DNA from: Planctomycetota bacterium | GTDB taxonomy: Bacteria > Planctomycetota > Planctomycetia > Pirellulales > PLA5 | Direction: 5' to 3' | Assembly (NCBI GenBank): GCA_003576845.1 | Contig: QEVJ01000054.1 | Span: 1-36,445, forward strand | Length of the DNA: 36,445 nt | In this document: positions 4,810 through 36,182 of the stretch, in pieces | Layout: every line of letters begins with the position of its first letter | Numbering within the stretch: the stretch's first letter is position 1 | Notes under the pieces: generated by a model | The model's input: the letters and a program-made list of their open reading frames with translations, nothing else | What the model was told of the DNA's origin: nothing | The model's database searches: none | Program-made: the position numbers and the translations under genes

Positions 4810-5858
4810 GACGCCGCTCCTTGCCGCTCGGTGGCACGATTAGCTTGCGCGCTGGTGAGCAACGCCGTTGGAGCATCCAATGCAACGCCAGTGGGCGAGG
4901 CGCCAATGCCGCTCTGTCGCCGCCGTCGCCACCAACTCGAAGCGAGCAATCCGAGCTTCTTCCACTTTCCGACCGTCGGACGCTTGCGCCACACGTCGTA
5001 ATCGATCGCCCGAATCGCCTCGACGATCGCCAGCCCGCCGCGCGCAAACAACTCGATCTGCACCTGGAATTCCGGCGGCATGCGATCGGCGAGGGGCATC
5101 CCCGCGATTAGGAATGCTTCCGCCCGCGCCACCTCGACCTCCATCACCCGGCGAAATGCGGCGTTCATCTCCCGGCGGGCGAACATCGCCTCGTCGTAGC
5201 CACATCGTCGCCACGACTCGCCCGGCAAATAAATCCGCCCGCGATCCCAATCGTTCGCCACGTCCTGGCAAAAGTTCGCCAGTTGCAGCCCCGTGCAAAT
5301 CTGGTCGGAAAGCTCGCCGCGCTCGCCGTCGTGGGCGCGGGCGAGATACAACACGAGCCGCCCAACGGGATCGGCCGACCCGCGGCAATACGCACGCAAG
5401 TCCTCGAACGTCGCGTACCGCGTCTGTTGCTGGTCGCGGCGAAATGCGGTCAACAAGGCGAGGAACGGCTCGATCGGAATCGCAAACTCGGCGATCGTTT
5501 CGCCCATCGCGACAAACACCGGATGCGTCGCCCGGCCGCGGTAACACGCTTCGAGCGACTCCTGCCACCAGTCGAGCAGCGCCAGCGACTCGTCCGCGGA
5601 ACCGGTCTCGTCGGCCAGGTCGTCGGCCCAGCGGCAGTAAGCGTAAATTGCGTGAAAATGCGGCCGCAACGCTCGGGGAACGAGAAAACTGGCGACGGTA
5701 AAGTTCTCGTAATGCGTCCGCGCCAGGCGCCGGCAATACGCTCGCGCATCCGCGAGCGTCGGCGGCGTCGAGGCGACATGCGGCCCGAACCGTGCCAGGT
5801 CGTTGATAATGGACGAGCGCGGCATCGTGTGCTGGTCGCCTCTCGATCCGCTCGCCAT
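4806..5858 (-). CDS. hpnC: Hydroxysqualene synthase HpnC
   Basis: A 350-residue enzyme of the squalene/phytoene synthase fold, first gene of the squalene operon. In this pathway HpnC converts presqualene diphosphate to hydroxysqualene. The first Asp-rich motif is YCRWADDLADE (about residue 75), and the second is FCQDVANDWDRGRIYLP (about residues 195-215), both intact. ATG 5858 is preceded by a GAAAGG purine stretch 9 bases away; a second ATG at 5825 (MPRSSI) also has a possible ribosome site and would give a length closer to the family norm. The C-terminal ~50 residues after the catalytic domain are unconserved-looking. It is divergent from ispH, which supplies upstream isoprenoid precursors. 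No squalene-hopene cyclase or sterol cyclase gene is in this window. Confidence 0.91.
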   Translation of the reverse strand: MASGSRGDQHTMPRSSIINDLARFGPHVASTPPTLADARAYCRRLARTHYENFTVASFLVPRALRPHFHAIYAYCRWADDLADETGSADESLALLDWWQESLEACYRGRATHPVFVAMGETIAEFAIPIEPFLALLTAFRRDQQQTRYATFEDLRAYCRGSADPVGRLVLYLARAHDGERGELSDQICTGLQLANFCQDVANDWDRGRIYLPGESWRRCGYDEAMFARREMNAAFRRVMEVEVARAEAFLIAGMPLADRMPPEFQVQIELFARGGLAIVEAIRAIDYDVWRKRPTVGKWKKLGLLASSWWRRRRQSGIGASPTGVALDAPTALLTSAQANRATERQGAAS

Positions 5859-6001
5859 AATCGTTCGCCTTTCCCACCCGCGGGCCGGTCATTATGATGC
5901 ATGGTAGGCTTCCACAGCCCGTAGCGGAAGTCGCCGAGATGTCCGCTACGGAATACCCAATCTGTCAACCGCCCACTGTCCACTACGTCCCCGCCGCCGC
6001 C

Positions 6002-6940
6002 ATGAAAGTCCTGCTAGCTAGCCCCCGCGGATTTTGCGCCGGCGTGAACATGGCGATCGAGTGCTTGGACCTGGCCCTGCGGCTCTATGGCCCGCCGGTC
6101 TACGTGTATCATGAAATCGTCCACAACAAGCACGTCGTCGACGAGTTCCTCGCCAAGGGGGCGGTGTTCGTCAATTCGATCGACGAAGTGCCCGTCGGGT
6201 CGCACTTGCTCTATTCGGCCCACGGCATTTCGCCCACGGTCCGCGCGGAATCCGCCGCCCGAGAGCTTCACGCCATCGACGCCACGTGTCCGCTGGTCAC
6301 GAAAGTTCACCTCGAAGCAATCCGCTACGCCGAGCGCGGTTATAAAATCCTGCTCATCGGCCACGAAGGGCACGACGAAGTCGTCGGCACGATGGGCGAG
6401 GCGCCCGACGCGATCGTGCTCGTGCAAACGCCCGAAGACATCGACGCGCTCGCCTTCCCGCCGGGCACGAAACTCGCCTACGTCACGCAAACCACGCTGT
6501 CGGTCGACGACGCGAATCGGATCATCTCGCGGCTCAAGGCGCGCTTTCCCGCCATCGCCGCGCCGCCCAAGGAAGACATCTGCTACGCGACGCAGAACCG
6601 GCAAGAAGCGGTAAACATCCTCTCGCAAGAAGCGGAGTTGGTCCTAGTGCTGGGCAGCCAGAACAGCTCCAACAGTCAGCGGCTCGCGGAGCTTGCCCGC
6701 CAGGCCGGCCGCGCGGCGTACTTGGTCGATGGACCCGGCGATCTCGACGAGTCGTGGTTCGACGGGGTCGAAACAGTGCTCGTCACGGCCGGCGCCAGCG
6801 CCCCGGAAACGGTCGTCCAGCAGGTGCTCGACTATCTTCGCGAGCATTTTGCCGCCACGGTAGAGTCCCGTTCGATCCGCGACGAGGAAGTTTATTTTCC
6901 GCTTCCGCGCGAACTCCGCCGGGCGACGGCCAAGGCCTGA
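6002..6940 (+). CDS. ispH: 4-hydroxy-3-methylbut-2-enyl diphosphate reductase (IspH/LytB)
   Basis: An iron-sulphur enzyme of the methylerythritol phosphate pathway that reduces HMBPP to IPP and DMAPP. The three cluster cysteines are visible in SPRGFCAGV, DATCPLVTK and DICYATQNRQEAV. The catalytic glutamate region GHEGHDEVVGTMGE and the substrate-binding GSQNSSNSQRL block are also present. Starting at 6002 (MKVLLASPRGFCAGV) gives 312 residues, the usual family length, and begins right at the first beta strand. In-frame ATGs at 5894 and 5939 also exist; the 5939 codon has a better ribosome site (GGAAG, 8 bases away) but would add 21 unconserved residues. The gene is divergent from hpnCDE; its products feed the farnesyl diphosphate used there. 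Confidence 0.95.
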   Translation: MKVLLASPRGFCAGVNMAIECLDLALRLYGPPVYVYHEIVHNKHVVDEFLAKGAVFVNSIDEVPVGSHLLYSAHGISPTVRAESAARELHAIDATCPLVTKVHLEAIRYAERGYKILLIGHEGHDEVVGTMGEAPDAIVLVQTPEDIDALAFPPGTKLAYVTQTTLSVDDANRIISRLKARFPAIAAPPKEDICYATQNRQEAVNILSQEAELVLVLGSQNSSNSQRLAELARQAGRAAYLVDGPGDLDESWFDGVETVLVTAGASAPETVVQQVLDYLREHFAATVESRSIRDEEVYFPLPRELRRATAKA

Positions 6941-6967
6941 CAGCACGTCGAAGACCGCACACTGAAT

Positions 6968-7039
6968 TGTAGGAGGCGAATCCTTTCGCCGAAGTCCTCG
7001 TGGAAAGCGTCGAATTGGCGAAAGGATTCGCCTCCTACA
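6968..7039. repeat. Long perfect inverted repeat between convergent ispH and APH-fold gene
   Basis: Arms at 6968-6990 and 7017-7039 are perfect reverse complements (23 bases; core GTAGGAGGCGAATCC / GGATTCGCCTCCTAC) with a 26-base loop. It lies 28 bases after the ispH stop and 30 bases before the stop of the minus-strand gene. It could act as a bidirectional terminator or mRNA 3' stabiliser. There is no T-run, so classical intrinsic termination is not shown. The arms look like a dispersed palindromic element. Confidence 0.8.
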
Positions 7040-7068
7040 GCGGTATTTGGACAGGCTGCAAAACCGGT

Positions 7069-8142
7069 TTACCCGCTGTTGAGAATCAGCGTGGTTCCGC
7101 CGCGCGGCTCCGAAACGAGTCGTTCCAACCGCGCTACGGCGGCTAGCAGACGCTTCGTGACCGCCGCCGGATCGTCGAACGTGCGTCCGTCGACGAGCAG
7201 CCACCGCAACCACAGGGCCGGCGACAGCGCGATGTTGGCGCGTTCGATGACGATGACTAGGCAACGCTCGTCTGCGTCGAGCGGACGCACGATTTCATAC
7301 GCCGCCGCGCCCAAGTCCCGCGCCGCGGCGTCGCTGGCCGCGAGACTTCCGAGCAGCCGGGCGATGTCCGCCGCAACCGAATCGACGCGCATCGCACCGA
7401 GGTCGACAATCCCCGTCACCTCGTCGCCGACGAACAGGACGTGATCGCTCCAGACGTCTCCCAGGCAGGGTTGCAGCGCGACATCAAGTCGCGTCGCGTC
7501 CTCGACGAGTGGCCCAACCAACGCCGCAGCGCGCGGAAAAAGCGACACGAACCGCCGGCACGCATCGGCGACCTCGGGAGCGACGGGCCGCGAGGTCAGC
7601 GCCGCCGAAAGCTCCTCCAAACCGCCCACCAACAATCGCGCCAGCCGTGCGCGGCGCTCGACGATGCCGGGCGATGGTCCTCGTTGCAACTCAATGAATG
7701 GAAACGATTCCACCGCGCGATGAAACCGCGCCAAGGCCTGCATCGCGTTCGAGAGTCGCTCGCGGCTCGGCCGCGCATGATAATCCGCCACGCCGCCGAG
7801 CCACGGCGCCAGTTCCCACAACCGCCCGGCGCGATAGACGAACGTCGCGCCGTCGGTCGTGCGAACCGGCTGCGCGAGAAGCGTGAAGCCATTCGCCAAG
7901 GCATGCGCCGCGACGTGGTGAATCCAAGCGAGCCGCTCCGGCGAAGGATGTTCCTGTGGCCAGCAGCGCAGCGCCAGCGTTCCCCGCGCGGCCTGCAACT
8001 TCCAAATCCGCGCCCCGCTAAAACCGCCAGCCGAGCCGAGCGCAACGCCGCTCGCCGCGCGGCAATCCGGCGGATAACGCTCCAGAACGGCTTGTACGTC
8101 GGCGTCCATAGGTCCGGTAAGCCCGTAGTGCGGCGTCCACAT
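7069..8142 (-). CDS. APH-fold (aminoglycoside phosphotransferase/homoserine kinase-like) protein
   Basis: A 357-residue protein with the two-lobed small-molecule kinase fold. The N-lobe starts with GSAGGFSGARIWKLQ (about residues 37-51, the nucleotide-loop equivalent). The C-lobe has LGDVWSDHVLF (227-237) followed by GEVTGIVDLGAM-like sequence at 240-251. In active family members the first motif reads HGDxxxxN; here the histidine is leucine and the asparagine is histidine, while the catalytic aspartate (D229) and the metal-binding aspartate (D247) are kept. The substrate cannot be read from sequence. ATG 8142 was chosen because upstream codons lie inside a palindromic repeat; ATG 8109 is also possible and neither has a clear ribosome site. 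It stands alone between ispH and the divergent yqiJ-like gene. Confidence 0.75.
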   Translation of the reverse strand: MWTPHYGLTGPMDADVQAVLERYPPDCRAASGVALGSAGGFSGARIWKLQAARGTLALRCWPQEHPSPERLAWIHHVAAHALANGFTLLAQPVRTTDGATFVYRAGRLWELAPWLGGVADYHARPSRERLSNAMQALARFHRAVESFPFIELQRGPSPGIVERRARLARLLVGGLEELSAALTSRPVAPEVADACRRFVSLFPRAAALVGPLVEDATRLDVALQPCLGDVWSDHVLFVGDEVTGIVDLGAMRVDSVAADIARLLGSLAASDAAARDLGAAAYEIVRPLDADERCLVIVIERANIALSPALWLRWLLVDGRTFDDPAAVTKRLLAAVARLERLVSEPRGGTTLILNSG

Positions 8143-17161: not shown

Positions 17162-20100
17162 TCAACCTTGAAGCAGCGTGGGCGCCGGCGTATTGCTCGT
17201 GCCGCGTTTCCGTTCGCGGCGTGGCGGCTCGTCGCGCTCGCTGCCGGCCAAAAAGTGCGTGCAATAGCCGCCTGTCGGCAAATGTTCGGCCGCGAGGTCG
17301 AGCACGTGGCGGTGATGGGTGAAGAAGATGACTTGCGTCTTTTTGGCCAGTTCCGCGAACGCCGCTAGCGCCGCGGCGGCCCGGCGGTCGTCGAACCGCT
17401 GAAGCACGTCGTCGACGATGAACGGAATGGGTGGGTGATTGTCGAGATAGTGCTCGACGCTGGCGAGGCGGAGGGCAAGGTAAAGCTGGTCGCACGTGCC
17501 GTCGCTCATGCCGGTTACACGTACGAACTTGCCCGACGAAGCGCGCACGGCGACGAGGATGGGCTTTTCCTCGTCGTGATCGGCCCTTAGTTCGGAGAAG
17601 TCGCCGCACGTAAGGCGCGAAAAGATGGCGCTGGCCCTGGTCAAGAGCGGCGCTTCGTTCGCCTTGCGATACCGGTCGATGGCCAGCCGCAGCACGGTCG
17701 ACGCCAACCTCAACTGAGCGTAGCGGGCGACGTCGCCTTCGAGTTGCGCTTTTTGCTCTTGCAATTGGGCGTTCGCAATGGCCGCGTCGTTGCGCCCGGC
17801 GTTCGCCAGTTCTTCGCGCTCGAGATGCCAAATCTGCTTTCGCAGAGAATCGAGCTTCTCGACAAGGTCTCTATGGCGCGCGGCCAGCCTCGCCTGTTCG
17901 CCGGGAAGGCCGTCCTGCTCGACGCGCGAAAGGTCGTCTAGGAACAATTCCAGCGACGCCCCCGCCGCTTGCGCGACGAGCGCCTCGTCGACTTCCGCGA
18001 GCTGCCCTTGCAGTTCGGTCCACCGTCGCCAGCGCACCTCGATCGTCGGCAGGTCGCTGACGGATTCCGTGCCGGCTTCCCGGCAAAGCGCGGCCATCGC
18101 GGCTTCCGCAGAGTCGACGTCCTGGCGAAACTGTGCCAACTCGGTCTCATGGCGCTCGCGGTCCGCGATATGCCTACGCCGCTCGCCGTCGTCCTCGCGG
18201 GCTTCGCTCAATCGAGCGCCCAATGTTGCAACGAGCGTTGCGACCGCAGGGAAGTCCCCCGCGATCGCCGCGCGGGCGTTGAGTTCCGGGCACGATCGTG
18301 CGGCAACATCGGCGACTTGCGACGCATACTCTCGCGCATCGCGGTCGATTCCGGCGATTCGACCCGCGCCGTCGGTTCGCTTTTCGAGCAGATTGCGCAG
18401 CTCGGCGAGCGCGGCGAGCAACGCCTGTGCCTGTGCCGGTGTCAGTTCGTCGTCGTGCCCGAGCGGTTCCACCGCGGTTGCCCAAGCTTGGCGCCACTCG
18501 TCTCGTTCGTTCTCGCAGCGATTCAGATCGTCGTTGGCTTCGGCCAGTTCGCGGGTATCGTCGGCACAGGATGCCTCCAACGACTGCCGGCGGGCGCGGC
18601 GGGTCTCGATTTGGTCTCGAATCGCTTCGAGCGCTTCGGCGGCATGGGAGAGCGACGAACCGCCAACTTGGCCGCGCAGCGCTGCAAGCACGGCAACCGC
18701 TTCCTCGCGGGCCTCCTCGAGCTGCCTGGCGACGGCCGCATGCTCGGCGAAGCGTTGGCGAAGGGCGGCCGCGCGATCGCACAGCCTTTGTCGCTCGCCG
18801 GCCCAAGCGAGCATTTCGCGCGGCGCGCCCGGCGAAACGCCCGATGGCTGCCAAAGCGCCGTCCACTCGCGTTCGCCGGCCGCGTATTGATCTCTGGCGT
18901 GGGACAATTGATTATCGGCCTGGGCTAGGGCCGCGCTCTTCTTCACCAATTCGCTTTCTAGCGAGCTTCTCCTCGCGACGGCGTCGGCGTCGCGTCGCAT
19001 CCGGTCGGCAACGGCATCCGCGGCAGCGACCAGAGGCTCGAATCGCAGGGCGCAAGTTTGCGCCGACGCAAGATCGCCGGCGGTAAGTGCGTCGCAAAGC
19101 GCTCGCCACGCCGCATCGCGCGCTTGCCGAGCCTCGACAAGGGCGCTTTCCGTTGGCGCCTCCCCGCTGGCATGCAGCGCCGCCAAATCCCGGCGCAAGT
19201 TCGCAACTTCGCTGGCAAGGGCGTCTCGACGTCGAATCGCTTCTTCGACCCTTCCGCTCTCCGTGGCCAACCGCGCTTCGTAGCTCCGGATCGCGTCCAT
19301 CGCGGGAACGGACAAGCGTTCGAGGGCGTTCAGATTGCCGTCCCAACGTGCCAACTGAGCCGTATCGACGGCAAGCTGTTCGTCGTCGGCCGCAAGCCGC
19401 TTCGTTTCGACCGCGTGCGGCGCTTCGGAGTGTACGAGCGGTGGAAGGCGCTTGAGCAATCGTTTAAGCGCATCGTCGTCGCCGACCGGCGGTAGCTGCG
19501 CGAGTTTGCTTTGTGCTTCGGCAATGCGACGTTCGAGTTGGGCCCGCCGATGCAAGGCGTTATCGCGGCGAGCGGCAAGGTCGCGATACCGGCCGCTTAG
19601 TTCCTCGATCCGCACGCGGTCGGCGGTCCGCACGACGATCTTCAACTCTTGGTTGTCATCCGAATTGCGGCCGATCATTTCGAGCTGGGATTGTATATCC
19701 CGATCCAGTTGCTCTTTTTTGTGGGCAAGATCGACGCGGTCCGTTGCGGCCTTGGCGTGACTGCTCAAATCGCGGCAGATCGCATCGACCGCCGCGGCGT
19801 GTTCGAGAATCGGCGGCGGAACGCCGAGATTGGAAAGTCGCAAATCGATGCGGTTAAGCTCCTGCTCGGCGCGGTGCCTCGCGTCCGTCGCGGATTGCAG
19901 TCGCGTCGCGGCTTGCTCGCGACGTTCCGCAAAATCGTGGGATAGAACGGGCGCGCTGCCGATTTCCGCAAGCTCCGCCAGTTTCGCCGCGCGACGGGAC
20001 GCGAGCGGCAAGGCCGCCTGGATTCGGGCGAGCCGCGTGCGCGCGGCGTCGAGCGCGGCAAGTTCCTTTTCGATCGCCGCGATCTCGGCCTTGGCAACGG

Positions 20101-20743
20101 CCAGCTCCCGCTCGCGGCGAAGCCAATCGTCGGCCGAAAGCTGAATGTCGCGCAGCGTTCGGGACGCTTTGTTGTACTCGGCGAGCGCCGCGTTGATCGG
20201 CAGTACGCGGGCCTGGGGCTTGTATAGCGCTTCGGCGCTCGCGCGGAGGGTCGCCTGCAATTGGCTGATATGAGCCACGCCCGCACTTGCCGCGAACAGC
20301 ATTTGGCCCACGTCGCCCTTGCCGAGCGCCATTTCCTCTCCGCCTTTGACGAGCGTCTCGTGGTCGAGGCCGAACCGCATCCTGAATGCCGCTTCGTCGA
20401 TATGCCCGAGGGCCTTGGCGAGTTCGTCAGCGGCAATCGGGTTCGTGTCGCTTGCGTCGCGGAGCGTGTTCTTGTTTCCCTTGCGACGCACGATTTGCAG
20501 CGTCTCGCCAGTGGCAAAGCGGACCGTGGCGCCAATCCGCATATCGTTGTACGGATGCACGTGGTCGTCCGTCGATCGCGACTCGATGCCGAACAGCAGC
20601 CCCCGTAGCGCGCGGAGCGCCGTGCTCTTGCCCGCCTCGTTGGGGCCATAAACGATGTGCAGCCTGTCGCTTCCGGCGGCGAAGTCGAGCGATGCGCCGG
20701 TGAACGGACCGAAGGCGAGCAGATCGAGTTCGAGAATCTTCAT
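17162..20743 (-). CDS. YhaN-like (SbcC/Rad50-type) AAA ATPase
   Basis: A 1193-residue SMC-like ATPase. The N-terminal half-site starts MKILELDLLAFGPFTG and carries Walker A YGPNEAGKST (about 33-42), the form typical of YhaN/AAA_27 proteins. About 800 residues of coiled coil follow, in two stretches. The C-terminal half has the ABC-type signature MSDGTCDQLYLALRLA and Walker B PFIVDDVLQRFDD, with a final histidine switch in FFTHHRH. No CxxC zinc hook is seen at the middle, unlike Rad50 and SbcC. The product is expected to partner the YhaO-like nuclease encoded immediately upstream, whose stop overlaps this ATG by four bases (20740-20743). Probable role: ATP-driven DNA-end processing or repair. 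The exact substrate is not readable from sequence. Confidence 0.92.
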   Translation of the reverse strand: MKILELDLLAFGPFTGASLDFAAGSDRLHIVYGPNEAGKSTALRALRGLLFGIESRSTDDHVHPYNDMRIGATVRFATGETLQIVRRKGNKNTLRDASDTNPIAADELAKALGHIDEAAFRMRFGLDHETLVKGGEEMALGKGDVGQMLFAASAGVAHISQLQATLRASAEALYKPQARVLPINAALAEYNKASRTLRDIQLSADDWLRRERELAVAKAEIAAIEKELAALDAARTRLARIQAALPLASRRAAKLAELAEIGSAPVLSHDFAERREQAATRLQSATDARHRAEQELNRIDLRLSNLGVPPPILEHAAAVDAICRDLSSHAKAATDRVDLAHKKEQLDRDIQSQLEMIGRNSDDNQELKIVVRTADRVRIEELSGRYRDLAARRDNALHRRAQLERRIAEAQSKLAQLPPVGDDDALKRLLKRLPPLVHSEAPHAVETKRLAADDEQLAVDTAQLARWDGNLNALERLSVPAMDAIRSYEARLATESGRVEEAIRRRDALASEVANLRRDLAALHASGEAPTESALVEARQARDAAWRALCDALTAGDLASAQTCALRFEPLVAAADAVADRMRRDADAVARRSSLESELVKKSAALAQADNQLSHARDQYAAGEREWTALWQPSGVSPGAPREMLAWAGERQRLCDRAAALRQRFAEHAAVARQLEEAREEAVAVLAALRGQVGGSSLSHAAEALEAIRDQIETRRARRQSLEASCADDTRELAEANDDLNRCENERDEWRQAWATAVEPLGHDDELTPAQAQALLAALAELRNLLEKRTDGAGRIAGIDRDAREYASQVADVAARSCPELNARAAIAGDFPAVATLVATLGARLSEAREDDGERRRHIADRERHETELAQFRQDVDSAEAAMAALCREAGTESVSDLPTIEVRWRRWTELQGQLAEVDEALVAQAAGASLELFLDDLSRVEQDGLPGEQARLAARHRDLVEKLDSLRKQIWHLEREELANAGRNDAAIANAQLQEQKAQLEGDVARYAQLRLASTVLRLAIDRYRKANEAPLLTRASAIFSRLTCGDFSELRADHDEEKPILVAVRASSGKFVRVTGMSDGTCDQLYLALRLASVEHYLDNHPPIPFIVDDVLQRFDDRRAAAALAAFAELAKKTQVIFFTHHRHVLDLAAEHLPTGGYCTHFLAGSERDEPPRRERKRGTSNTPAPTLLQG

Positions 20744-26849: not shown

Positions 26850-27393
26850 CGCTCGTTCGAGTCGCGAAGATCGCGACCGCTCCGCGAGGACGCTCGATCC
26901 TTCGAGCCGTCGGTGATGCGTGGCGATCCGCCTCGTCGCAAGCGGGTGCATCGAGTTAGTGCCCGCGGTGTCGCCCGGCGTCACATGGGGAGCGTTCGAG
27001 TCGCCGCAAATGCTTGGCGGGCATGAAGATGCGCCGCGAATCGAGCGGCATTGGAGCGGCCCGGACGGCGGCCCGTCAAGAGCGATTCCAGGCTCTAGGG
27101 CCACGTTTTCCGCCCCGATTTTCCCCGCCGCGGTTCGGGTTGCCGCATACGATTGAGATGACAATACTGTCGGCACGAACATCGGGCGTCGGCGTAGGGT
27201 GGGCTGTGCCCACCGGAACCTCCGAGCAGAAGCCGTTCGAAACAGTTCAGCCCGCCATTTCTTTTCGACTCCACCGAAGAACGAGCGCCACGCAAGCGCA
27301 ACCTCGGACAAAATGGATGAACTGGTGGGCGCAGCCCACCCTACATGTCTCGCCCATACGATTACTGCATTTCTCGCCGCGCAAGGACTCGCC
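26850..27393. other. Divergent intergenic region between ECF sigma gene and 2-oxo acid decarboxylase gene
   Basis: 544 bases with no convincing gene. The proximal ~100 bases may belong to the sigma gene if its start is the upstream ATG. The distal half holds an inverted-repeat element listed separately. Open frames that cross it are read through from neighbours and have no coding character. Promoters of both divergent genes should be here but no clear -35/-10 pair was recognised. Confidence 0.6.
27194..27345. repeat. Inverted-repeat element with self-palindromic ends
   Basis: The left end 27194-27214 and right end 27325-27345 are near-perfect reverse complements (GTAGGGTGGGC ... GCCCACCCTAC). 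Each end is itself a palindrome (GGTGGGC-TGT-GCCCACC on the left, GGTGGGC-GCA-GCCCACC on the right). They enclose 110 bases with no ORF. The layout resembles a miniature inverted-repeat element or a paired REP-like sequence. No target-site duplication was identified with confidence. Confidence 0.65.
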
Positions 27394-29124
27394 ATGTCGA
27401 CCGCCGATATCATTCCCGTTCGGCCCGAAATGCGCCGCGAGGCGCCGCCCGCTTCGGCGGTGGCCGGGCTGTCGATCGGCGGCTATTTGATCCGCCGGTT
27501 GCAGGATTACGGCATCCGCGACGTGTTCGGCATTCCGGGTGACTATGTGCTGGCGTTCTACAACCTGCTGGAAGCAAGCCCGATCAACGTCGTCGGCTGT
27601 ACGCGCGAGGATTGTGCCGGGTTCGCGGCCGACGCCTATGCCCGCGTGAACGGGATGGGCGCGGTCTGTGTGACCTATTGCGTGGGCGGCTTGAGCTTGT
27701 GCAATTCGATCGCCGGGGCGTATGCCGAGAAATCTCCGGTCGTGGTGATCACCGGTTCGCCGGGGATGAACGAACGGGTGAACAATCCACTGTTGCACCA
27801 CCGGGTCCGCGATTTTCGCACGCAGCTCGAAGTGTTCGAGAAACTGTGCATCGCGGGCGCGGAACTAAGCGACCCCGACACGGCGTTTCGCGAGATCGAC
27901 CGCGTGCTCGACACGGCGGCAAGCTTCAAGCGGCCGGTATATCTCGAAATTCCGCGGGATATGGTGAACGTCGTTCCGCAGGTGCCTCATGCCTATCGCC
28001 ACATCGAGCCGGCGAGCGATCCGGCGGCCCTGGCGGCGGCTCTCGACGATGCCATGGCGTGGGTATCGTCGGCGGAGCGGCCCGTGATCATCGGCGGCGT
28101 CGAGATTCACCGCTTCGGCTTGCAGGACGAAGTGCTCACTTTGGCCGAACGGGCGAAAATTCCGGTGGCGGCAACGATGCTCGGCAAGAGCGTTGTCCGC
28201 GAGACGCACCCGCTGTATATCGGCCTGTACGAAGGCGCGATGGGCCGGCAAGACGTTACCAGGTTCGTCGAAGAGAGCGACTGCGTGCTGCTGTTGGGCA
28301 CGTTCATGACGGACATCAATCTCGGGATCTTCACGGCCAATCTTTCGCCCGATCAGTGCATTTACGCGACGAGCGAAAAGCTCCGCATTCGGCAGCATCA
28401 TTTTCAGGAAGTTTTGTTGCCGGACTTCATTCGCGAGTTGGCGTCGCGGGCGGAGGAGCTGGTCAATCCGGCGGCGCCGGCGCGGGAGTTACCCAAATCG
28501 CCCGAGGCCGGCGGCTTCGTGATGCGGGCGAACGAACCGATCGGCATTCGGCGGTTGATCGCCCGGCTCAACGAGCAACTCGACGACGAGACGATCGTCA
28601 TCGCGGACATCGGCGATTCGCTGTTCGCGGCGACGGAACTGGTTACGCACGGGCGCAGCGAGTTCTTAAGTCCCGCGTACTACACGTCGATGGGCTTTTC
28701 GCTTCCGGCCGCGCTCGGGGCGCAGGTCGCGCGGCCGAACATGCGGGCGGTGGTGATCGTCGGCGACGGGGCGTTTCAGATGACCGGCATGGAGCTCTCG
28801 ACGATCGCCCGGCACGGGTTCCCGACGATCGTGATCGTGCTCGACAACAAGGGCTACGGCACGGAGCGGTTCTTGCACCACGGCGAACATGCCTACAACG
28901 AAATTCATCCGTGGAATTACCATAAGTTGCCGGAAGTTCTCGGCCGCGGCACGGGCTATGAAGTCCGCACGGAGGGCGAATTCGACGCGGCGCTCAACAA
29001 AGCCTGGGCCGATACGAGCGGGTTCAGCTTGATCCAGGCCCATCTGGCAAAGACCGATTGCAGCCTGGCGCTGGAGCGGTTGGCGGAGAAGCTGAGCAAA
29101 CGGGTGGCGGGGAAGGCGCATTAG
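27394..29124 (+). CDS. Thiamine-diphosphate 2-oxo acid decarboxylase (pyruvate/indolepyruvate decarboxylase family)
   Basis: A 576-residue cytosolic enzyme that decarboxylates 2-oxo acids to aldehydes. The N-terminal PYR domain has the catalytic glutamate in [16 protein letters not shown] (E72, aligned to the ELNAxYAAD motif) and the adjacent histidines of [11 protein letters not shown], which distinguish decarboxylases from acetolactate synthases. The central domain is at about 190-340. The C-terminal PP domain has the cofactor motif [16 protein letters not shown] (G457-D458-G459) through LDNKGYG (D484-N485). ATG 27394 (MSTADII) is preceded by AAGGA at seven bases, so longer upstream reading is rejected. 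Substrate preference between pyruvate, indolepyruvate and phenylpyruvate cannot be decided. In this context it may supply fermentative or redox balance. Appears monocistronic. Confidence 0.9.
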
Positions 29125-29341: not shown

Positions 29342-29498
29342 GTAATGCGGTCGAGCGAAAGGTCAGCCGTTCTCGACCGTGTCATCCTGCCGTTTTCGCG
29401 AGAATTCCGGGCAGCGCGGGGTGGGATGGAACGATCCACGCGGGTTGATCGTCCAACCGGCGGAGAATCCTGTGTTGTTTACGATTGGAGGTTCGGCC

Positions 29499-30020
29499 AT
29501 GAAGCGGGCGAATATCGTCGTTGCCGTCGTCGTTGTTGTTGTCGTCGTTGCTGTCGCTGGCTGGGCGCTGCCGGTGTACGCGGATTACAGCGTGACGCGG
29601 AGCGGGGCGTGGCCGGCGAGTTGGCCGGCGGAGCTCGAGCCGCTGCGGAAGGAGGCCCGGACGCTCGAAGGGCCGATGGTGCTTTACTTGCACCATGCGA
29701 TCGCGTTTTCGGACCGGGCGGCGTTCGAGGCGGCGTGGCCGCACCTCTTGAAGGTCCGCAGTCCGGGAGCGCCGATCGTGTTGCGGCGCGGGGCGAGTTT
29801 TTGGCTGGGCGGCGGGAAAGCGGCGGGAGTTTGCATCCACACGCCGCCGGCCGGCGAAGAGCCGCTCGTCGACGCGAAACAGGTCAACGGCCGCTGGGCG
29901 AAGACGGTGTATATCGAGCTGATCGTCGACGGCGAGATCGTGGACTTGAATCGGATCGCCCTGCCGCGCGAGGCGGTGGTGATCGACGAGCGGTTTGAGG
30001 AGGGGAAAGGGAAGCGCTGA
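29499..30020 (+). CDS. Hypothetical exported or membrane-anchored protein
   Basis: 173 residues from ATG 29499, which has an ideal GGAGG site seven to eight bases upstream; longer in-frame starts are not needed. The N-terminus is MKRANIV followed by a run of valines and alanines to about residue 25 (WALPVYA), a signal peptide or anchor. The mature part (about 27-173) is a mixed alpha/beta domain with no recognised motif; it contains PMVLYLHHAIAF, VLRRGASFWLGGGKAAGVCI and a strand-rich end (VYIELIVDGEIVDLNRIALP). It seems to belong to a group restricted to planctomycetes, which is an impression and not a search result. The stop is followed by a possible weak terminator at 30047-30068. Confidence 0.75.
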   Translation: MKRANIVVAVVVVVVVVAVAGWALPVYADYSVTRSGAWPASWPAELEPLRKEARTLEGPMVLYLHHAIAFSDRAAFEAAWPHLLKVRSPGAPIVLRRGASFWLGGGKAAGVCIHTPPAGEEPLVDAKQVNGRWAKTVYIELIVDGEIVDLNRIALPREAVVIDERFEEGKGKR

Positions 30021-30369
30021 ACTGGATTGCGCGAAGGGGCCGGGGTCGCCTTGGCGCGTGCTTTTTTTCGGCAGGTGTAAAATTCTTCGTGGACTTTTGG
30101 GAGGGGGTTTGGTAGGTTTGGCGGTGCGGGCGCGCGGGCTGGGTGGTCGCGCGGCTGTTATTGCTGCTGGCGATTGACCGAGAGCGTCCAGGGGCACGGC
30201 GCGGTTTTTTTCGACGGCTGTCGCACGGCACGGAAGAGAGAGTTTTTTCAGCCCTTTCCGTGGGGCGGCCCAGGCGCGTGTTGAAAAACCTAGCGGGGAA
30301 ATGGCAAGCGTTTTTGGGCGGGAGCGGGTGGAAAGTTGGGGCCAAGCTCCCCGGAAGAGGGAATTATTC

Positions 30370-30388
30370 AACGCTTCTCGCGTTTTTT
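30370..30388 (+). terminator. Possible intrinsic terminator inside the non-coding region
   Basis: AACGC-TTCTC-GCGTT makes a 5-base-pair stem with a 5-base loop and is followed directly by TTTT on the plus strand. The stem is short, so efficiency is doubtful. It would mark the 3' end of a transcript crossing 30050-30390, if one exists. Confidence 0.35.
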
Positions 30389-30788
30389 GGGCGGCAAGGC
30401 GCGATTGTGCGGCCGTGGATGTGCGGCGATGGGTCCGAGGGATGGGCCTGCGAGAAATGGCGACGAAGCGTCGTTTGCCGGTGGCTATGAATTGTTCTTG
30501 GGGAGGTTGCTGGCGCCGAGCGGCTTTACGATGGGGCGTGCTTGGCGGGGCACGCGATGGCGTTTGCAAAGGGGGAGTAGTGCCCAGGTGCGGGTTTGGA
30601 CGAACGAGGATGGCGGGACGGGCGGCGGTTCAGCACTGGCGGAGCCAGTGGCACCCCACGAGAATGGAAAGAACCCGGTCGTTCGCAAAGTCAATGGTGC
30701 GGATAGTGCCACCCCGTCGCGGGAAGTCACGTGTCTTCGACGGTGCCACCCCGCCGATACCGCTTTCTCTTATTAGCGATACTTGTTC

Positions 30789-30799
30789 ACAGTAACTGT
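30789..30799. promoter_or_regulatory. Palindrome immediately upstream of the methyltransferase start
   Basis: ACAGT-A-ACTGT is a perfect 11-base dyad that ends one base before the ATG at 30801 and replaces any ribosome-binding sequence. It could be an operator for autoregulation of the methyltransferase or a small RNA hairpin. Methyltransferase genes of restriction systems are often controlled this way, but no regulator gene was seen here. Confidence 0.35.
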
Positions 30800-30800
30800 A

Positions 30801-31706
30801 ATGAAAAAACGCCAGCGAGATTCAAAAGGCAAGCAATCGATAGCAAAGCCATGTTCGACTTTGGCACAGCCGACGCACGGGATAACTCGGTGGTCCGGAA
30901 TAGCGAAAAACGGATGCAGTTGGGAAATACTCCGGAGCGATGCGAAGACAGCATTGGCGTCCATGGAGAACGAACGTTTTAGGTGCGTGGTCACCTCACC
31001 TCCATATTACTCGCAACGTGACTATGAGGTTGATGGGCAGATTGGGTTGGAAAAAACGATTGCCGAGTATGTGAGCCGGATTGTTGACACGTTCGATGAA
31101 GTAAAGCGCGTTCTTGCTCGGGATGGCTGTTTGTTTCTTAATCTCGGTGACACCTATTATTCTGGCAAAGGGCAACCGAGGGGCAAGGATAGAAAGAATG
31201 GGGCGAGGCGGTTTGGGTTGCGGCCAGTCGATGCAAGCGGCTTGGGCGTCGCACGAAAAACGACCATTGGAATTCCGTGGAGAGTGGCCCTTGCCATGAT
31301 CGAAAGAGGTTGGACGCTTCGTTGCCCAATTGTCTGGTTGCGAAACGGTACCCCGCCGGAACCGACCGCCCGTGATCGTCCCTGGAAAACCTACGAAATG
31401 GTGTTCCTTTTTGTCAAAGAACCAAGGTATTTCTTTCAGCGATCCGGACTGAACGGCGAAGAGGATGTTTGGAGAATATCTAATCGCCCTAAGCACTCGC
31501 GTGGAGTGCATTCCGCCGCTTTTCCCGATGAATTGGTACAAAGGTGTCTGAAGGTGGGATGCCCACCCAACGGCGAAGTCCTCGATCCATTTGCTGGCAG
31601 CGGAACCGTAATGCGAGTAGCGCTCGCTAGCGGCCGGCCGGCGGTCGCAATTGATTTGAGCGAAAAGTATTGCAAGCACATGGCGCAAGGTGTTGAGCAA
31701 CTTTAG
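30801..31706 (+). CDS. Site-specific DNA methyltransferase (SPPY type, N4-cytosine or N6-adenine)
   Basis: 301 residues. The catalytic motif IV is TSPPYY (65-70), a form most common in N4-cytosine enzymes, and it precedes the AdoMet-binding motif DPFAGSGT (262-269), so the motif order is the circularly permuted (beta-type) one. Between them lie LFLNLGDTYYSGKG and IPWRVALAMIERGW, typical of this group, and the probable target-recognition part (about 110-240). ATG 30801 was chosen; an upstream TTG is in frame but lacks support. There is no ribosome site. The stop (31704-31706) is directly followed by the stop of the convergent DUF262 gene. Base composition is visibly AT-richer than the genes to the left and right, suggesting transfer. 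No classical restriction endonuclease is adjacent, so it is either an orphan or part of the island described here. Confidence 0.9.
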   Translation: MKKRQRDSKGKQSIAKPCSTLAQPTHGITRWSGIAKNGCSWEILRSDAKTALASMENERFRCVVTSPPYYSQRDYEVDGQIGLEKTIAEYVSRIVDTFDEVKRVLARDGCLFLNLGDTYYSGKGQPRGKDRKNGARRFGLRPVDASGLGVARKTTIGIPWRVALAMIERGWTLRCPIVWLRNGTPPEPTARDRPWKTYEMVFLFVKEPRYFFQRSGLNGEEDVWRISNRPKHSRGVHSAAFPDELVQRCLKVGCPPNGEVLDPFAGSGTVMRVALASGRPAVAIDLSEKYCKHMAQGVEQL

Positions 31707-32858
31707 TTACTTCCCTTGCATCTTTCGTTTAGGCTTGCCACCGTCCTTTGCCGCCTCGACGGTACATTCTGCAACGATCTCATCCAGCAGCGAGTCAATC
31801 ACTTCGGCGCGATCAACGCGAGCATATTTGTCATTTGTGGCTTTTGTTGCCGCTTTCAGATACCGAAAAACTCGATCGGCAGATTTTCCTGACTCTGTAT
31901 CTTCGACAGGAGTTCTCAGTGCAAATCTCTCGTCAACCTCTCGATAGAACGCGTCGAGTACCTCGCCTACTCGTTTCGCGTCGAGGTCGGTTTTCTTCAG
32001 GTAAGTCGAAAGTTCAACGATTAGCGTAAAGAGATCGGTCTTCTTCCACACGCGACATTTCTTGTCGAATCCGCACTCGTCAATGAAATTAAACACTTGC
32101 TCAATCTGTGATTTGATTTTCTTCCCCTTGGGGAAGGAGTCGTTGAATCTCTCGAGGTATTCGTAGTTCAGCTCGTCACGGTGATAGTACGTCGAGAGCA
32201 ACGTAGTCGTAAGTATGACGCAGAAGTCGAGGTCTCTCATGCGCCGCAAATCTGCGAGTGAGAATGTGACATGTTTGTCGAAAAAACTGTGCTTCGACAA
32301 GGTGTCGCAGAATTGTTTGTACTCCCCACTGAAGCGCGCATTTAGACGCTCAATTGCTTTGAGGGCATAGTCGGTCGAATTAATTCGCGCAAATACCTCC
32401 TTGATTTGTTCGGGTGTGCGTTTACCTAGATCACGAACCACGACTTCATAGTCAAGGAAGCGGCCCTTCTGCTCGACGGTAAGCTCGGCGTACGGTGGTA
32501 CCTTCGACAGCACCAAATCCTCTGACCCGTGGACATACTCGCGCAATGTTGAAATGCGCTGTTGACCGTCGACGAGGAGGGTGCTGCGCAACATTGTAGT
32601 CGTGTCGAGTTCTCCGGTTGCAATGAATATCTCAGGGAAAGGCAGGCCGAGCACGACGGTTTCCAGGAAGTGGTCTTTTACGACGTTCGTCCATACCAAG
32701 CGACGTTGAAAGGCTGGCTTCAGAATGAGGACGCCCTGATCGACCTCGCGTATGAGGTCGCTTACGCGACGAATGCTCACACCAGCATTAAAAGGTTGTT
32801 GTGGCTCAGTTGCTAAGTGCGCTTGCACACTTTTGGACGGCGATTTCTTGATAGGCAT
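31707..32858 (-). CDS. DUF262-domain protein (GmrS/ParB-nuclease-like)
   Basis: 383 residues from ATG 32858. The DUF262 domain runs from about 25 to 210: FNAGVSIRRVSDLIREVDQG, LKPAFQRRLVW (47-56), the hallmark DGQQR (97-101) and ARINSTDYAL. The C-terminal ~170 residues are helical and charged, ending in a Lys-rich tail; the HNH nuclease domain (DUF1524) found in GmrSD-type fusions is not present. In GmrSD, BrxU and SspE the DUF262 domain binds nucleotide and controls DNA cleavage. This gene overlaps the end of the nucleotidyltransferase-fold gene by 53 bases (103 if an in-frame ATG at 32909 is used), which implies coupled translation. The family is common in defence loci. The protein here may sense or regulate; the nuclease activity is uncertain. 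Confidence 0.87.
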   Translation of the reverse strand: MPIKKSPSKSVQAHLATEPQQPFNAGVSIRRVSDLIREVDQGVLILKPAFQRRLVWTNVVKDHFLETVVLGLPFPEIFIATGELDTTTMLRSTLLVDGQQRISTLREYVHGSEDLVLSKVPPYAELTVEQKGRFLDYEVVVRDLGKRTPEQIKEVFARINSTDYALKAIERLNARFSGEYKQFCDTLSKHSFFDKHVTFSLADLRRMRDLDFCVILTTTLLSTYYHRDELNYEYLERFNDSFPKGKKIKSQIEQVFNFIDECGFDKKCRVWKKTDLFTLIVELSTYLKKTDLDAKRVGEVLDAFYREVDERFALRTPVEDTESGKSADRVFRYLKAATKATNDKYARVDRAEVIDSLLDEIVAECTVEAAKDGGKPKRKMQGK

Positions 32859-33399
32859 CGAAACGTGACCATGTTCTATAGAGTCGGGCGGAAATCCGGC
32901 GTTTTCCAAAGCGCCGCGATCGCATTAGTTCATCAAAGAACTCTGTCCACCGCGCGGCTTCTTTGAAACTGGGAACTGGCGGCAGCCACCGCGGGTCAAT
33001 CCACCCGCGGAAGAGTGTATTCACGAATCTCCGATACCGTTTCGTGGCGTGCCACGCGCGGTCGACGCGAGAATACGCAAATACACTTTCCCAATAGACA
33101 TCGAAACGTTCAGCGGAGACAATTGCAATGTCGAGGTCTGAGCCAGCATGAGCGGGATTCCACAGCTTCTTGGGAACGATGCTGAAGCCAAGGCGACAAG
33201 AACCCACCAATACGACGGCGCTAGGGTGAATTGAAAACTCTTCAGCAACAATACGTCGCAACTCAAAATAATCCTCTTCGGAAATCTCAGTCGGCATTCC
33301 GGTCGTGATGTACTTCCGTACGGAATCCTGCGGCGAAAGCCGTTTGAGGTCCGCTTGAAACCGGTCAATCAACCGTTCGTCGTTCGGAAACGTGCTCAT
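32806..33399 (-). CDS. Nucleotidyltransferase-fold protein
   Basis: 197 residues. The pol-beta-type signature is clear: VVLVGSCRLGFSIVPKK (about 62-78) with the glycine-serine pair at 66-67, then GSDLDIAIVS (86-95) with the two metal-binding aspartates D88 and D90. A third carboxylate cannot be assigned with confidence. The C-terminal half is rich in Trp, Arg and Phe (RFVNTLFRGWIDPRW, WTEFFDELMRSRRFGKRR) and is probably helical and nucleic-acid-binding. It lacks the size and features of CBASS cyclases, and no HEPN partner gene is adjacent, so a MNT/HEPN antitoxin is not favoured. It is the first gene of a two-gene operon with the DUF262 gene. Composition is AT-rich like the rest of the island. 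The substrate (nucleotide, RNA or protein) is unknown. Confidence 0.8.
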   Translation of the reverse strand: MSTFPNDERLIDRFQADLKRLSPQDSVRKYITTGMPTEISEEDYFELRRIVAEEFSIHPSAVVLVGSCRLGFSIVPKKLWNPAHAGSDLDIAIVSAERFDVYWESVFAYSRVDRAWHATKRYRRFVNTLFRGWIDPRWLPPVPSFKEAARWTEFFDELMRSRRFGKRRISARLYRTWSRFDAYQEIAVQKCASALSN

Positions 33400-33432
33400 T
33401 GTTGCTCTTCTTATCGCGGTTAATTCTGCAAT

Positions 33433-33463
33433 CCTTTTTCGACGCGTACAAGCTCGATGATTG
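33433..33463 (-). promoter_or_regulatory. Possible promoter of the nucleotidyltransferase-DUF262 operon
   Basis: On the minus strand TTGTAC and CAGAAT are separated by 17 bases, 30-60 bases upstream of the ATG at 33399. Each hexamer matches the housekeeping consensus at four of six positions. The 155-base spacer to comM contains nothing else recognised. Confidence 0.3.
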
Positions 33464-33554
33464 CGAAATCCCGCGATTTGGCTCGATGCGCCTGACAGTA
33501 GCCGATAGAAGTAAAGTCCTTGTGCGTCTTGTCGGTTCTAGACACGGTGGTTGC

Positions 33555-35135
33555 TTACGTCCACAGATTCCGATCCAGCATCCGGTAGTTGATCGCTTCG
33601 CTCAAGTGGTTTGCGGCGATGGTGGCGGCTGCGTCTAGGTCGGCGATGGTTCGGGCTACTCGGAGGACTTTGTCGTGGGCGCGGGCGGAGAGGCCGAGGT
33701 CGGACATGGCGGCTTTTAGGATGTTTTGGGCGGGTTCGTCGATTGCGGCGTGTTGGCGGAGTTGGCGGTGGTTCATGTGGGCGTTGTATCGCGTGCTCGT
33801 GCCCCGGTAGCGCTCGCGTTGGATTTGCCGGGCGCGTTCGACTTGCTCGCGCATGGTTTGGCTGGACGTGCCGGGGGTTTGGCTGGCGAGCTCTTTGTAA
33901 GGGACGGCCGGAACTTCGATGTGAATGTCGATGCGGTCCAGGAGCGGGCCGGAGATTTTGGCCATGTAGCGCTCGATCTGTGGGACCGTGCAGTGGCATT
34001 GGCGGTTCGGGTCGGTGCGATAGCCGCAGGGGCACGGGTTGAGCGCGGCGATTAGCATGATGCTGGCGGGGAAGGTGCTGCTGGCCAACGCGCGGCTGAT
34101 CGTGACGGTGCCTTCTTCGAGCGGCTGGCGGAGGACTTCGAGCGTCTGGCGGTTGAACTCGGGCAGTTCGTCGAGAAACAGGACGCCGTTGTGCGAGAGG
34201 CTGATTTCGCCGGGGGTGGGCGTGCTGCCGCCGCCGACAAGGCCGGCGTTGGAGATCGTGTGGTGCGGCGAGCGATAGGGCCGCGTGGCCATCAGCGGTT
34301 GGCCTTCTTTCAAGAGGCCCATGGCGCTGTAGATGCGGGTGGTTTCGATCGACTCGCCGGCGGAGAGCGTGGGCATGATTGTGGGGACGCGTTTGGCGAG
34401 CATCGTTTTGCCAGAGCCGGGCGGGCCGAGCATCAGGAGGTTGTGGCTGCCGGCGGCGGCGATGGTGAGGGCGCGTTTGGCCATTTCCTGGCCGCGGACA
34501 TCGGCGAAGTCGACGTCGTAGCGGGAGAACTCGTGGAACCACTGGTCGATGCGGGGCGGGGTGGGTTCGATTTCGAGCTGGCCGGAGAGAAAGGCGACGG
34601 CTTCGGCGAGGCTGCTGACCGGGATGACTTCGACGGCGTCGACGACGGCGGCTTCGCGAGCGCTGGCGGCGGGAACGATCAGGCCGCGAAGCTTTTTGTG
34701 CTCACCGTTGTGGGCCGCGGCTTGTTTGGCGGTATTGGCTTGCTTCGCGGCGGAGATGGCCATCGAGAGAGCGCCCTTCACCGGTCGCGTGCTGCCTTCG
34801 AGGGCGAGTTCGCCGACGATGGCGTATTGGTCGAAAAGGTCGCTGGCGAGTTGCCCGCTGCCGGCGAGCATGCCGAGAGCGATGGGGAGATCGAAGGAGG
34901 CAGCTTGCTTGGGAAGCTCGGCGGGAGCGAGGTTGATGACGATGCGGTCGTTGGGGCGCATGAAGCCCGAGTTGACGATGGCCCGCTCGATGCGATGGAC
35001 GCTTTCCTTGACGGCGGCTTCGGGGAGGCCGACGAGGATGGTTTTGGGCAGGGCGCCGGGGGAGACGTCGACCTCGACCTCGACGGGCGCGGCGTCGATG
35101 CCGAGGAGCGAGTAGGTGTTGAGTTTGGCGAGCAT
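33555..35135 (-). CDS. comM: YifB/ComM family Mg-chelatase-like AAA+ ATPase
   Basis: 526 residues, full length for the family. An N-terminal Lon-protease-like (ChlI) domain at about 1-170 contains VGLPEAAVKESVHRIE and RIVINLAPAELPKQ. A linker is followed by the AAA+ Mg-chelatase domain at about 200-400, with Walker A LGPPGSGKTMLA, Walker B GVLFLDELPEF and the family signature FPASIMLIAALNPCPCGY, which supplies two of the zinc-type cysteines. The C-terminal lid domain (about 420-526) includes LSARAHDKVLRVARTIADL. ComM homologues are hexameric helicases that promote branch migration of DNA taken up during natural transformation. The ATG at 35135 has no ribosome site; a C-rich leader encoded by a heptanucleotide array lies just upstream. 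The AT-rich defence-like island lies immediately downstream. Confidence 0.95.
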   Translation of the reverse strand: MLAKLNTYSLLGIDAAPVEVEVDVSPGALPKTILVGLPEAAVKESVHRIERAIVNSGFMRPNDRIVINLAPAELPKQAASFDLPIALGMLAGSGQLASDLFDQYAIVGELALEGSTRPVKGALSMAISAAKQANTAKQAAAHNGEHKKLRGLIVPAASAREAAVVDAVEVIPVSSLAEAVAFLSGQLEIEPTPPRIDQWFHEFSRYDVDFADVRGQEMAKRALTIAAAGSHNLLMLGPPGSGKTMLAKRVPTIMPTLSAGESIETTRIYSAMGLLKEGQPLMATRPYRSPHHTISNAGLVGGGSTPTPGEISLSHNGVLFLDELPEFNRQTLEVLRQPLEEGTVTISRALASSTFPASIMLIAALNPCPCGYRTDPNRQCHCTVPQIERYMAKISGPLLDRIDIHIEVPAVPYKELASQTPGTSSQTMREQVERARQIQRERYRGTSTRYNAHMNHRQLRQHAAIDEPAQNILKAAMSDLGLSARAHDKVLRVARTIADLDAAATIAANHLSEAINYRMLDRNLWT

Positions 35136-35435: not shown

Positions 35436-36182
35436 TTAGAGGAGGCTTTCGAGCAGCAGCCGCATCTTGCGCATTTCGCCGGCGTGGTCGACGTCTTCCA
35501 TGGGGGCGATATGGACGACCAGGGCGCGGCGGTAATTCTCCTTGGCGAGTTCGGAGATCAGGCGGCCGTATTCGATTTCGCCCTGGCCGACGCGGACCTG
35601 GAAGTGGTCCTTGGTCGAGTCGCGGAGGTGGACGTTGACGACGTATTTCATCACCTGACGATACTTGCCGCCGCGCAAGGGGCCGGCGACGTAATGGCTG
35701 GGATCGAGGGTGAGGCCGAGGCCTTTAACCTGATCGCAGAGGACGACGGCCGTGTCGGGGTTTTCGGTGAGGCAGCCGATTTGCGTCTTGAGGCCGACGA
35801 GGACGCCTTCGAGCGTGGCGATGGCGTGCAGGCGGCGGAGGCGCTCGATTTCTTCGTTGAACGGCGTGCCCAACTCGGCGGCGGGAACGACGAGCGTGAC
35901 GACCTTCATCGCCTTCGCGAGACGGCAACAAGCCTGAAACTGCTGGTAATACTCTTCGCCGGTGGCGGTGAAGTCGAGGCTCAGGCTGACCGTGGTCAGC
36001 CGCGTCGAGCGACAGAACATCAGGGCCTTGTCGAATTCGGCGGCCACTTGCGAGGGGCGGAGTTGGTTGCTTTGCTCGTGGATCGCAACCTCGACGCTCG
36101 TGTATTCGAGGTCGACGAGCCGCTCGAACGCGGCCGGTAGGGAAAGCTCCGGAAAACACTCCGTTGACGCAGCAACAATCAC
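35436..36182 (-). CDS. Sugar phosphate isomerase/epimerase-like TIM-barrel protein
   Basis: A 248-residue AP-endonuclease-2/xylose-isomerase-like TIM barrel. Successive strands are visible: VEVAIHEQ (about 30-37), TTVSLSLDF (about 63-71), VVTLVVPA (about 94-101), VGLKTQIG, LGLTLDPSHYVAG (about 158-170, with the metal-site Asp/His pair), VVNVHLRD (about 183-190, second His/Asp) and ALVVHIAP. The conserved acidic and histidine residues fit a divalent-metal isomerase or epimerase; the true substrate is not readable. The start is GTG (36180-36182) with an excellent AAAGGAGT site nine bases away. The proposed length is short compared with many family members (270-300 residues) but the barrel appears complete. 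It lies in the same direction as comM but 300 bases upstream, so co-transcription is uncertain. Confidence 0.85.
   Translation of the reverse strand: MIVAASTECFPELSLPAAFERLVDLEYTSVEVAIHEQSNQLRPSQVAAEFDKALMFCRSTRLTTVSLSLDFTATGEEYYQQFQACCRLAKAMKVVTLVVPAAELGTPFNEEIERLRRLHAIATLEGVLVGLKTQIGCLTENPDTAVVLCDQVKGLGLTLDPSHYVAGPLRGGKYRQVMKYVVNVHLRDSTKDHFQVRVGQGEIEYGRLISELAKENYRRALVVHIAPMEDVDHAGEMRKMRLLLESLL

Follow-up and report, generated by a model that had tools for sequence, protein, structure and literature searches.

Proteins with a DUF262 domain recur in phage defence, and how those that lack a nuclease act is unsettled in the literature consulted. GmrSD, BrxU and SspE share a DUF262 domain with the motifs QR, DGQQR and FxxxN, and the available part of PMC12137116 names the same motifs for GrwA. 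TgvAB and GrwAB are, in the portion of their description at hand, two-gene systems of DUF262 proteins in which both partners have DUF262 and one also has DUF1524. Here we analyse a locus on contig QEVJ01000054.1 of a Planctomycetota bacterium (36,445 nucleotides; this whole stretch is called the window), where a gene for a small nucleotidyltransferase (NTase) is followed by a gene for a DUF262 protein, and both are accompanied by a gene for a DNA methyltransferase (MTase). The NTase and DUF262 genes are a conserved two-gene module. Compact as it is, and found from Planctomycetota to Escherichia coli prophages, the module opens the action of nuclease-less DUF262 proteins to direct tests: the partner is one small protein in which two aspartates are invariant, and some natural copies have an adjoining MTase while others lack it.

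The DUF262 protein of the window carries the three motifs (DGQQR at residues 114-118, codons at about 32556-32570), and its AlphaFold2 (AF2) model (predicted local distance difference test, pLDDT, 87) combines a predicted ParB/Srx-type nucleoside triphosphatase (NTPase) domain with an all-helical C-terminal half. The model could be aligned to BrxU (Z 9.2, root-mean-square deviation (rmsd) 16.8 over 287) and to SspE (Z 8.8, rmsd 3.7 over 142). In contrast to the GmrSD, BrxU and SspE systems, there is no DUF1524 nuclease domain, the C-terminal half is helical and the NTase is encoded by a separate gene; unlike in TgvAB and GrwAB as described in the text at hand, only one of the two partners is a DUF262 protein. 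A Pfam scan of the three proteins of the locus detected no DUF1524, no HEPN and no known nuclease domain, in agreement with an initial annotation of this DNA, to which no HNH, PD-(D/E)xK or HEPN effector had been visible.

Among PADLOC models, NsnA of the Menshen system (NsnA/NsnB/NsnC) fits the DUF262 protein best, with E 2.8e-30 over residues 47-379. NsnB and NsnC gave no match in the DUF262 protein, the NTase or eight other proteins of the window, those of the flanking genes among them, and none among the best 25 of 60 families obtained for the MTase. The three strongest of the NsnA loci examined (L155-L157) carry a gene for an AAA-type ATPase (Pfam-tested in L155 and L157) and a third gene, and no NTase. 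Membership in Menshen was rejected because NsnB and NsnC were not found beside DUF262 and no NTase was present in these strongest NsnA loci.

The HEPN protein MAE_28990 is listed, in the consulted part of PMC3710099, in an operon with genes for a ParB nuclease and a DNA methylase. Systems of this type, as far as that part goes, resemble the present locus in joining a ParB-fold protein (taken here as DUF262-type) to a small partner gene, in some cases with a DNA methylase; they differ in having as partner a HEPN protein, whose gene lies downstream in the Bacilli loci described below, whereas the NTase gene of our locus lies upstream. HEPN-MNT toxin-antitoxin systems contain a small pol-beta-type NTase (GS...DxD) in a two-gene unit; the window NTase, with GS and DxD motifs and a weak fold match, may be of this type, but here the partner is DUF262 and not HEPN. 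As regards a CBASS cyclase, the window NTase is only 197 amino acids long and gave no PADLOC cyclase match, and its model could be aligned to CdnD (see below); no PADLOC model, cyclase or other, matched it at E 1 or better. As in type II restriction-modification (RM) systems, a DNA MTase (PF01555) is present. As for a cognate restriction nuclease, the PADLOC model REase_II (PDLC03418) matches the DUF262 protein at E 1.5e-9 and Pfam detects no known nuclease domain. The initial annotation knew of no described system with exactly these three parts. We found no description of the NTase-DUF262 pair in the open-access literature searched, a set in which the original Menshen paper did not appear and which does not establish absence from print.

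Conservation of the nucleotidyltransferase-DUF262 pair

With the NTase as query, homologous loci were collected from plasmids, from viral contigs, from planctomycete genomes and from a species-level genome collection, and one E. coli locus was added through DNA similarity to DUF262. The resulting 91 loci comprise the window and 90 others; L001 and other copies from the window's own genome are excluded from the counts. Loci on genome contigs are 80 of 85 confirmed matches, and the main genome survey was keyed on one conserved ten-residue NTase pattern and thus says little about the frequency of DUF262 genes without an NTase in this clade. In 85 of the 91 loci the DUF262 gene lies directly downstream of the NTase gene on the same strand: this applies to 75/80 loci on genome contigs, 6/6 on viral contigs, 1/2 on plasmids, to the single E. 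coli locus (1/1) and the single planctomycete genome locus (1/1), and to the window. Loci without DUF262 (L004, L083, L085, L087, L088, and L049, where the contig ends) were counted as misses.

The two genes are separated by a median gap of -4 nt, and 80 of the 85 pairs fall within -70 to +15 nt, the five outliers being the window, for which the longest start was taken, and L051, L073, L080 and L082, which have broken frames. In L073, L080 and L082 the NTase gene is frameshifted beside an intact DUF262 gene, and in L051 an in-frame stop interrupts DUF262 beside an intact NTase gene; sequencing error is possible in these natural copies. The distance matrices of NTase and DUF262 proteins are correlated with r = 0.914, and 999 permutations gave values of at most 0.129. 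Gene order, spacing and this co-inheritance, like the invariant motifs given below, are seen directly. Hosts of the pair belong to several bacterial phyla, and the DUF262 tree mixes phyla as transfer would predict; it is a quick tree without bootstrap, in which no branch with support of 95 or more places the window and L055, L078 and L090 have long branches. The pair is rare both in Planctomycetota, where 2 of 294 genomes, counting that of the window, have it at E 1e-5, and in E. coli, where it occurs in at least 4 of 5426 genomes, a lower bound from three DNA-similarity searches.

Residues G66, S67, G71, S73, D88 and D90 of the NTase are invariant in 91 of 91 homologues. The GS motif corresponds to codons 66-67 and SDxD to codons 87-90 of the window gene, with the D88/D90 codons at about 33130-33138. 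Its only Pfam match, NTP_transf_2, remained below the cut-off (E 0.013), a search of solved structures by sequence gave no match, and Foldseek returned nothing below 1e-3. The structure alignments took in 77 of the 91 NTase and 73 of the 85 DUF262 sequences. For the AF2 model of the NTase (pLDDT 94), the predicted resemblance to solved folds is distant: the best-aligned structures were the MNT antitoxin 8xeo (Z 5.2, rmsd 4.1 over 91) and 8xeh (Z 4.5), both weak matches, and CdnD was aligned with Z 3.4 (rmsd 4.0 over 107).

Genomic settings and a putative defence role

In E. coli strain 1500 the pair lies between a replication endonuclease gene and a portal gene, adjoining P2-type capsid genes, and the viral contigs L009 and L010 share this P2-like setting. 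According to the consulted parts of PMC9122126 and PMC9519451, this gpA-gpQ site, home of old and tin, is a hotspot for anti-phage systems. Three further E. coli chromosomes carry the pair, which has a phage-like setting in the two whose annotation was examined. In these two strains the pair, with the NTase confirmed in both, is located between early phage-type genes and the gene for antitermination protein Q, by our own reading a lambda-like prophage. One pair resides on a 6-kb Cronobacter plasmid. A phage collection searched with two NTase queries gave no match. Together with the RM operons described below, the prophage-hotspot settings point to a defence role; many neighbours elsewhere are ordinary genes, so that context alone is no proof of defence.

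The partners of related DUF262 genes were also inspected. NsnA-like DUF262 genes were present in 26 of 250 Bacilli genomes at E 1e-25, and 20 of the 32 matches were examined for neighbours. A HEPN-type gene follows downstream in L158, L159, L161-L165 and L173, five of these genes passing the Pfam cut-off and three falling short of it. The neighbour is an AAA-type ATPase in four cases, two of them confirmed with Pfam and two assigned from sequence likeness; it is the NTase in two and a SIR2 match under the threshold in one, and no partner was recognised by eye in five. Partners were judged by eye only in L166, L167, L169, L170 and L172 and by likeness in L156 and L160. DUF262 would thus seem to be a shared sensor whose partners can be exchanged, and since its neighbours vary (HEPN, AAA, SIR2-like, NTase), the NTase is favoured as the effector.

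The reading that we prefer, giving it about an even chance, is that the core of the locus is a mobile two-gene anti-phage module in which DUF262 hydrolyses NTP and serves as the sensor, with the NTase in place of the usual effector; function is inferred throughout. The DUF262 protein, with its ParB/Srx fold, would bind and hydrolyse NTP and, like its counterparts in GmrSD, BrxU and SspE, would detect DNA that is foreign or altered. As it has no DUF1524 nuclease attached, it would signal to an effector encoded on its own, the NTase, and this enzyme would halt the infected cell by nucleotide transfer to a target RNA or protein. In some lineages, the pair has been joined to a DNA MTase as part of an RM-type operon. 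Somewhat more tentatively, the pair may represent a widely transferred immune module, so far undescribed, whose ParB-fold NTPase senses the state of nucleic acids and activates an NTase effector. If this is so, the killing step served by the GmrS sensor could be nucleotide transfer as well as DNA cutting, and the unit would have been recruited by RM operons more than once as a back-up.

Several observations weigh against the preferred reading. When 145 near proteins (a random sample from 296, with proteins of more than 1000 amino acids excluded) were compared with 145 of 188 far proteins, C5 MTases (7, from 6 loci) were the sole recurrent near families among the 25 commonest of 144 PADLOC families. 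Among the far neighbours, no family had more than one member within the 25 commonest of 73 PADLOC families, and one MTase_II and several MTase_I models were found. The commonest Pfam families near the pair, C5 MTases apart, were a mixture of phage, transposon and housekeeping families, and these counts neither establish nor argue against a general defence-island setting of the pair. The weak top fold match of the NTase to an MNT antitoxin would fit a regulator rather than an effector. Also, the NTase has no invariant third acidic residue: position 172 is Gly in 63 of 85 sequences and lies in the strand which we take to be the expected site of the third catalytic Asp/carboxylate of a pol-beta fold. 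Acidic residues at positions 100, 137 and 181 are common and not invariant. Because of the missing invariant third acid and the Gly at position 172, catalysis by the NTase appears unsure, and because acidic residues are frequent at those other three positions, a loss of catalysis is not established either.

The locus in the window and its methyltransferase

Three intact open reading frames (ORFs) lie within 30783-33399 of the window, encoding the MTase on the forward strand and the DUF262 protein and the NTase on the reverse strand (Table 1), and the gene content, domains and coordinates of the initial annotation were confirmed.

Table 1. Coordinates of the features of the locus in the window, with the evidence for each.
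Feature	Coordinates	Strand	Evidence
Small NTase, 197 aa, first gene of the two-gene unit	32806..33399	-	ORF; GS and DxD motifs; sub-threshold Pfam match
DUF262/GmrSD_N protein, 383 aa from ATG 32858 (frame open to TTG 32909)	31707..32858	-	Pfam PF03235, E 2.2e-16
N4/N6 DNA MTase	30801..31706 (ATG; or TTG 30783)	+	PF01555, E 1.3e-35; PADLOC MTase_II, E 1.3e-75; TSPPY at ~30993-31007
Low-GC stretch with all three genes inside	30770..33540	.	GC of 500-nt windows ~0.48-0.54 inside, >=0.58 outside; edges approximate

The MTase gene is located on the strand opposite to the NTase and DUF262 genes and converges on both, so that the locus is not one transcription unit; it is composed of two convergent units and is not a single operon. 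The genes are indeed packed without spacing, as had been noted: the stop codons of the MTase and DUF262 genes abut at 31706/31707, and the end of the NTase gene overlaps the start of the DUF262 gene by about 50 nt. The GC content at third codon positions (GC3) of the three genes is 0.53-0.58 (0.54 for the MTase), which bears out the lower GC reported for them, as the four neighbours have values of 0.80 (27277-29124), 0.80 (29379-30020), 0.84 (33555-35135, comM) and 0.82 (35436-36182).

Of the two flanks originally named, comM was correct, since the gene at 33555-35135 is of comM type with a Mg_chelatase Pfam match (E 4.3e-95), but the hopanoid/flotillin-like genes (by likeness) occupy about 2-11 kb of the window and are 19 kb away. 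On the side away from comM, the neighbours are a gene for a thiamine pyrophosphate (TPP) enzyme (27199-29124, Pfam TPP_enzyme) and a small ORF. The stretch looks like an insert between this TPP-enzyme region and the Mg-chelatase-type comM gene. Flanking repeats that could be insertion footprints around the island were not convincing, and DUF262 was not found in one other genome of the genus (G298), a 92% complete draft whose contig stops about 206 nt past comM, so that the empty-site comparison does not reach the insertion point. Just ahead of the island, at 30020-30780, about 750 nt show a high GC skew and no clear gene, and a 1193-aa SbcC-like ATPase, encoded about 10 kb from the island at 17165-20743 on the reverse strand, weakly matches PADLOC LmuB (E 2e-18) and further ATPase models.

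MTases flanking the pair elsewhere were detected with models seeded from C5, PF01555 and Dam-type genes and by a short motif search, which other types may escape. A DNA MTase adjoins the pair or shares its operon in 13 of the 85 loci with the window included, the 12 among the 84 others being 11 of C5 and one of PF01555 type. C5 MTases adjoin the pair in ten loci (L052, L055, L057, L058, L070, L075, L076, L077, L084 and L086), and in L090 the gene order is C5 MTase, NaeI-type nuclease, Vsr, NTase and DUF262. The PF01555-type MTase, a weaker homologue of the window MTase, lies directly upstream of the pair in L078; other weaker homologues occur near the pair in L035 (one gene between) and L039 (two between), outside the 13. 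Nine of the C5 loci fall into one 14-row clade of the DUF262 tree, with L055 and L090 far off, and the well-supported branches require the C5 label to have changed at least twice. In L075 the C5 MTase (5746-7971, forward strand) has an N-terminal match to Arm-DNA-bind_5, a domain known from integrases.

The initial annotation had proposed that the three genes could form one modification-dependent defence system, in which methylation would be sensed through DUF262. When co-occurrence was followed among NTase homologues, the link between NTase and DUF262 held (85/91), and the MTase did not prove to be a constant part of it (13/85 pairs; 12/84 other paired loci): under the refuting condition set in the initial annotation, a constant three-gene system fails and a two-gene system stands. 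In this genome, a modification-dependent or RM-like system in which the MTase marks self and the NTase-DUF262 pair restricts unmarked DNA is possible, if doubtful. The abutting genes and their shared low GC3 would fit it, as would the C5 MTases of 11 other loci, the PF01555-type MTase of L078 and the homologues in L035 and L039, but MTase and pair are on opposite strands and 72 of the 85 pairs have no detected adjoining or same-operon MTase. No other adjoining MTase occurs in the 25-row clade of the window (SH-aLRT 92, moderate), where, in L018, a large protein with an NPPY motif is encoded two genes away from the pair. Relatives of the window MTase were found at E 1e-20 in 13 of 294 planctomycete genomes, the window's included, and the 12 examined have neither NTase nor DUF262 nearby. 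The MTase itself was re-found in 10 of these 12, with an adjoining HNH-like gene in 5 of the 10 (four Pfam-confirmed), which would suit an RM-like system, and none such was found here by Pfam. Viral contigs carrying the window-type MTase were not found. A fixed three-gene unit was rejected on the neighbourhoods of the pair and on the MTase relatives without the pair. The window MTase is either an orphan sharing the ride or a local recruitment like those elsewhere; it may have arrived in this genome together with the pair, but any functional link between them is hypothetical. In five loci of Planctomycetota (L106-L110), a PF01555 MTase gene and an adjoining small HNH gene, judged by likeness in L108, apparently make up a compact RM pair.

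Regulatory and accessory readings of the pair

We regard as unlikely a control of the kind found in HEPN-MNT systems, in which the NTase would be an antitoxin or regulator that nucleotidylates or binds DUF262, and DUF262 would be toxic or act on DNA as a ParB-type nuclease or NTPase. The NTase is small and single-domain, DUF262 matches the REase_II model, and the available part of PMC3710099 places a ParB nuclease in one operon with HEPN and DNA methylase genes; the best-aligned folds are the MNT proteins 8xeo and 8xeh, but Z 5.2 is weak. The natural copies L073, L080 and L082 on the one hand and L051 on the other, possible sequencing errors aside, show either partner broken beside the intact other, so that neither acts like an antitoxin in the strict sense. 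An accessory unit of prophages or plasmids whose role is not defence but, for example, addiction or lysogeny control would fit the several copies in phage-like regions and the ordinary-looking neighbourhoods elsewhere but is improbable, as the DUF262 systems reviewed in the consulted part of PMC10952713 are anti-phage and the pair also stands in RM operons.

Related NTases without DUF262 occur in L088, L085, L083, L087 and L004, and the NTase family may have additional defence partners. In L088 the NTase gene lies between a DPPY-motif gene and a DUF499 gene, and in L085 it is near a SIR2-looking gene (judged by eye). In L004 its neighbour is a DUF4365 gene and a TIR gene is close by; this unpaired relative gave a weak match to a PADLOC cyclase model (E 0.0054).

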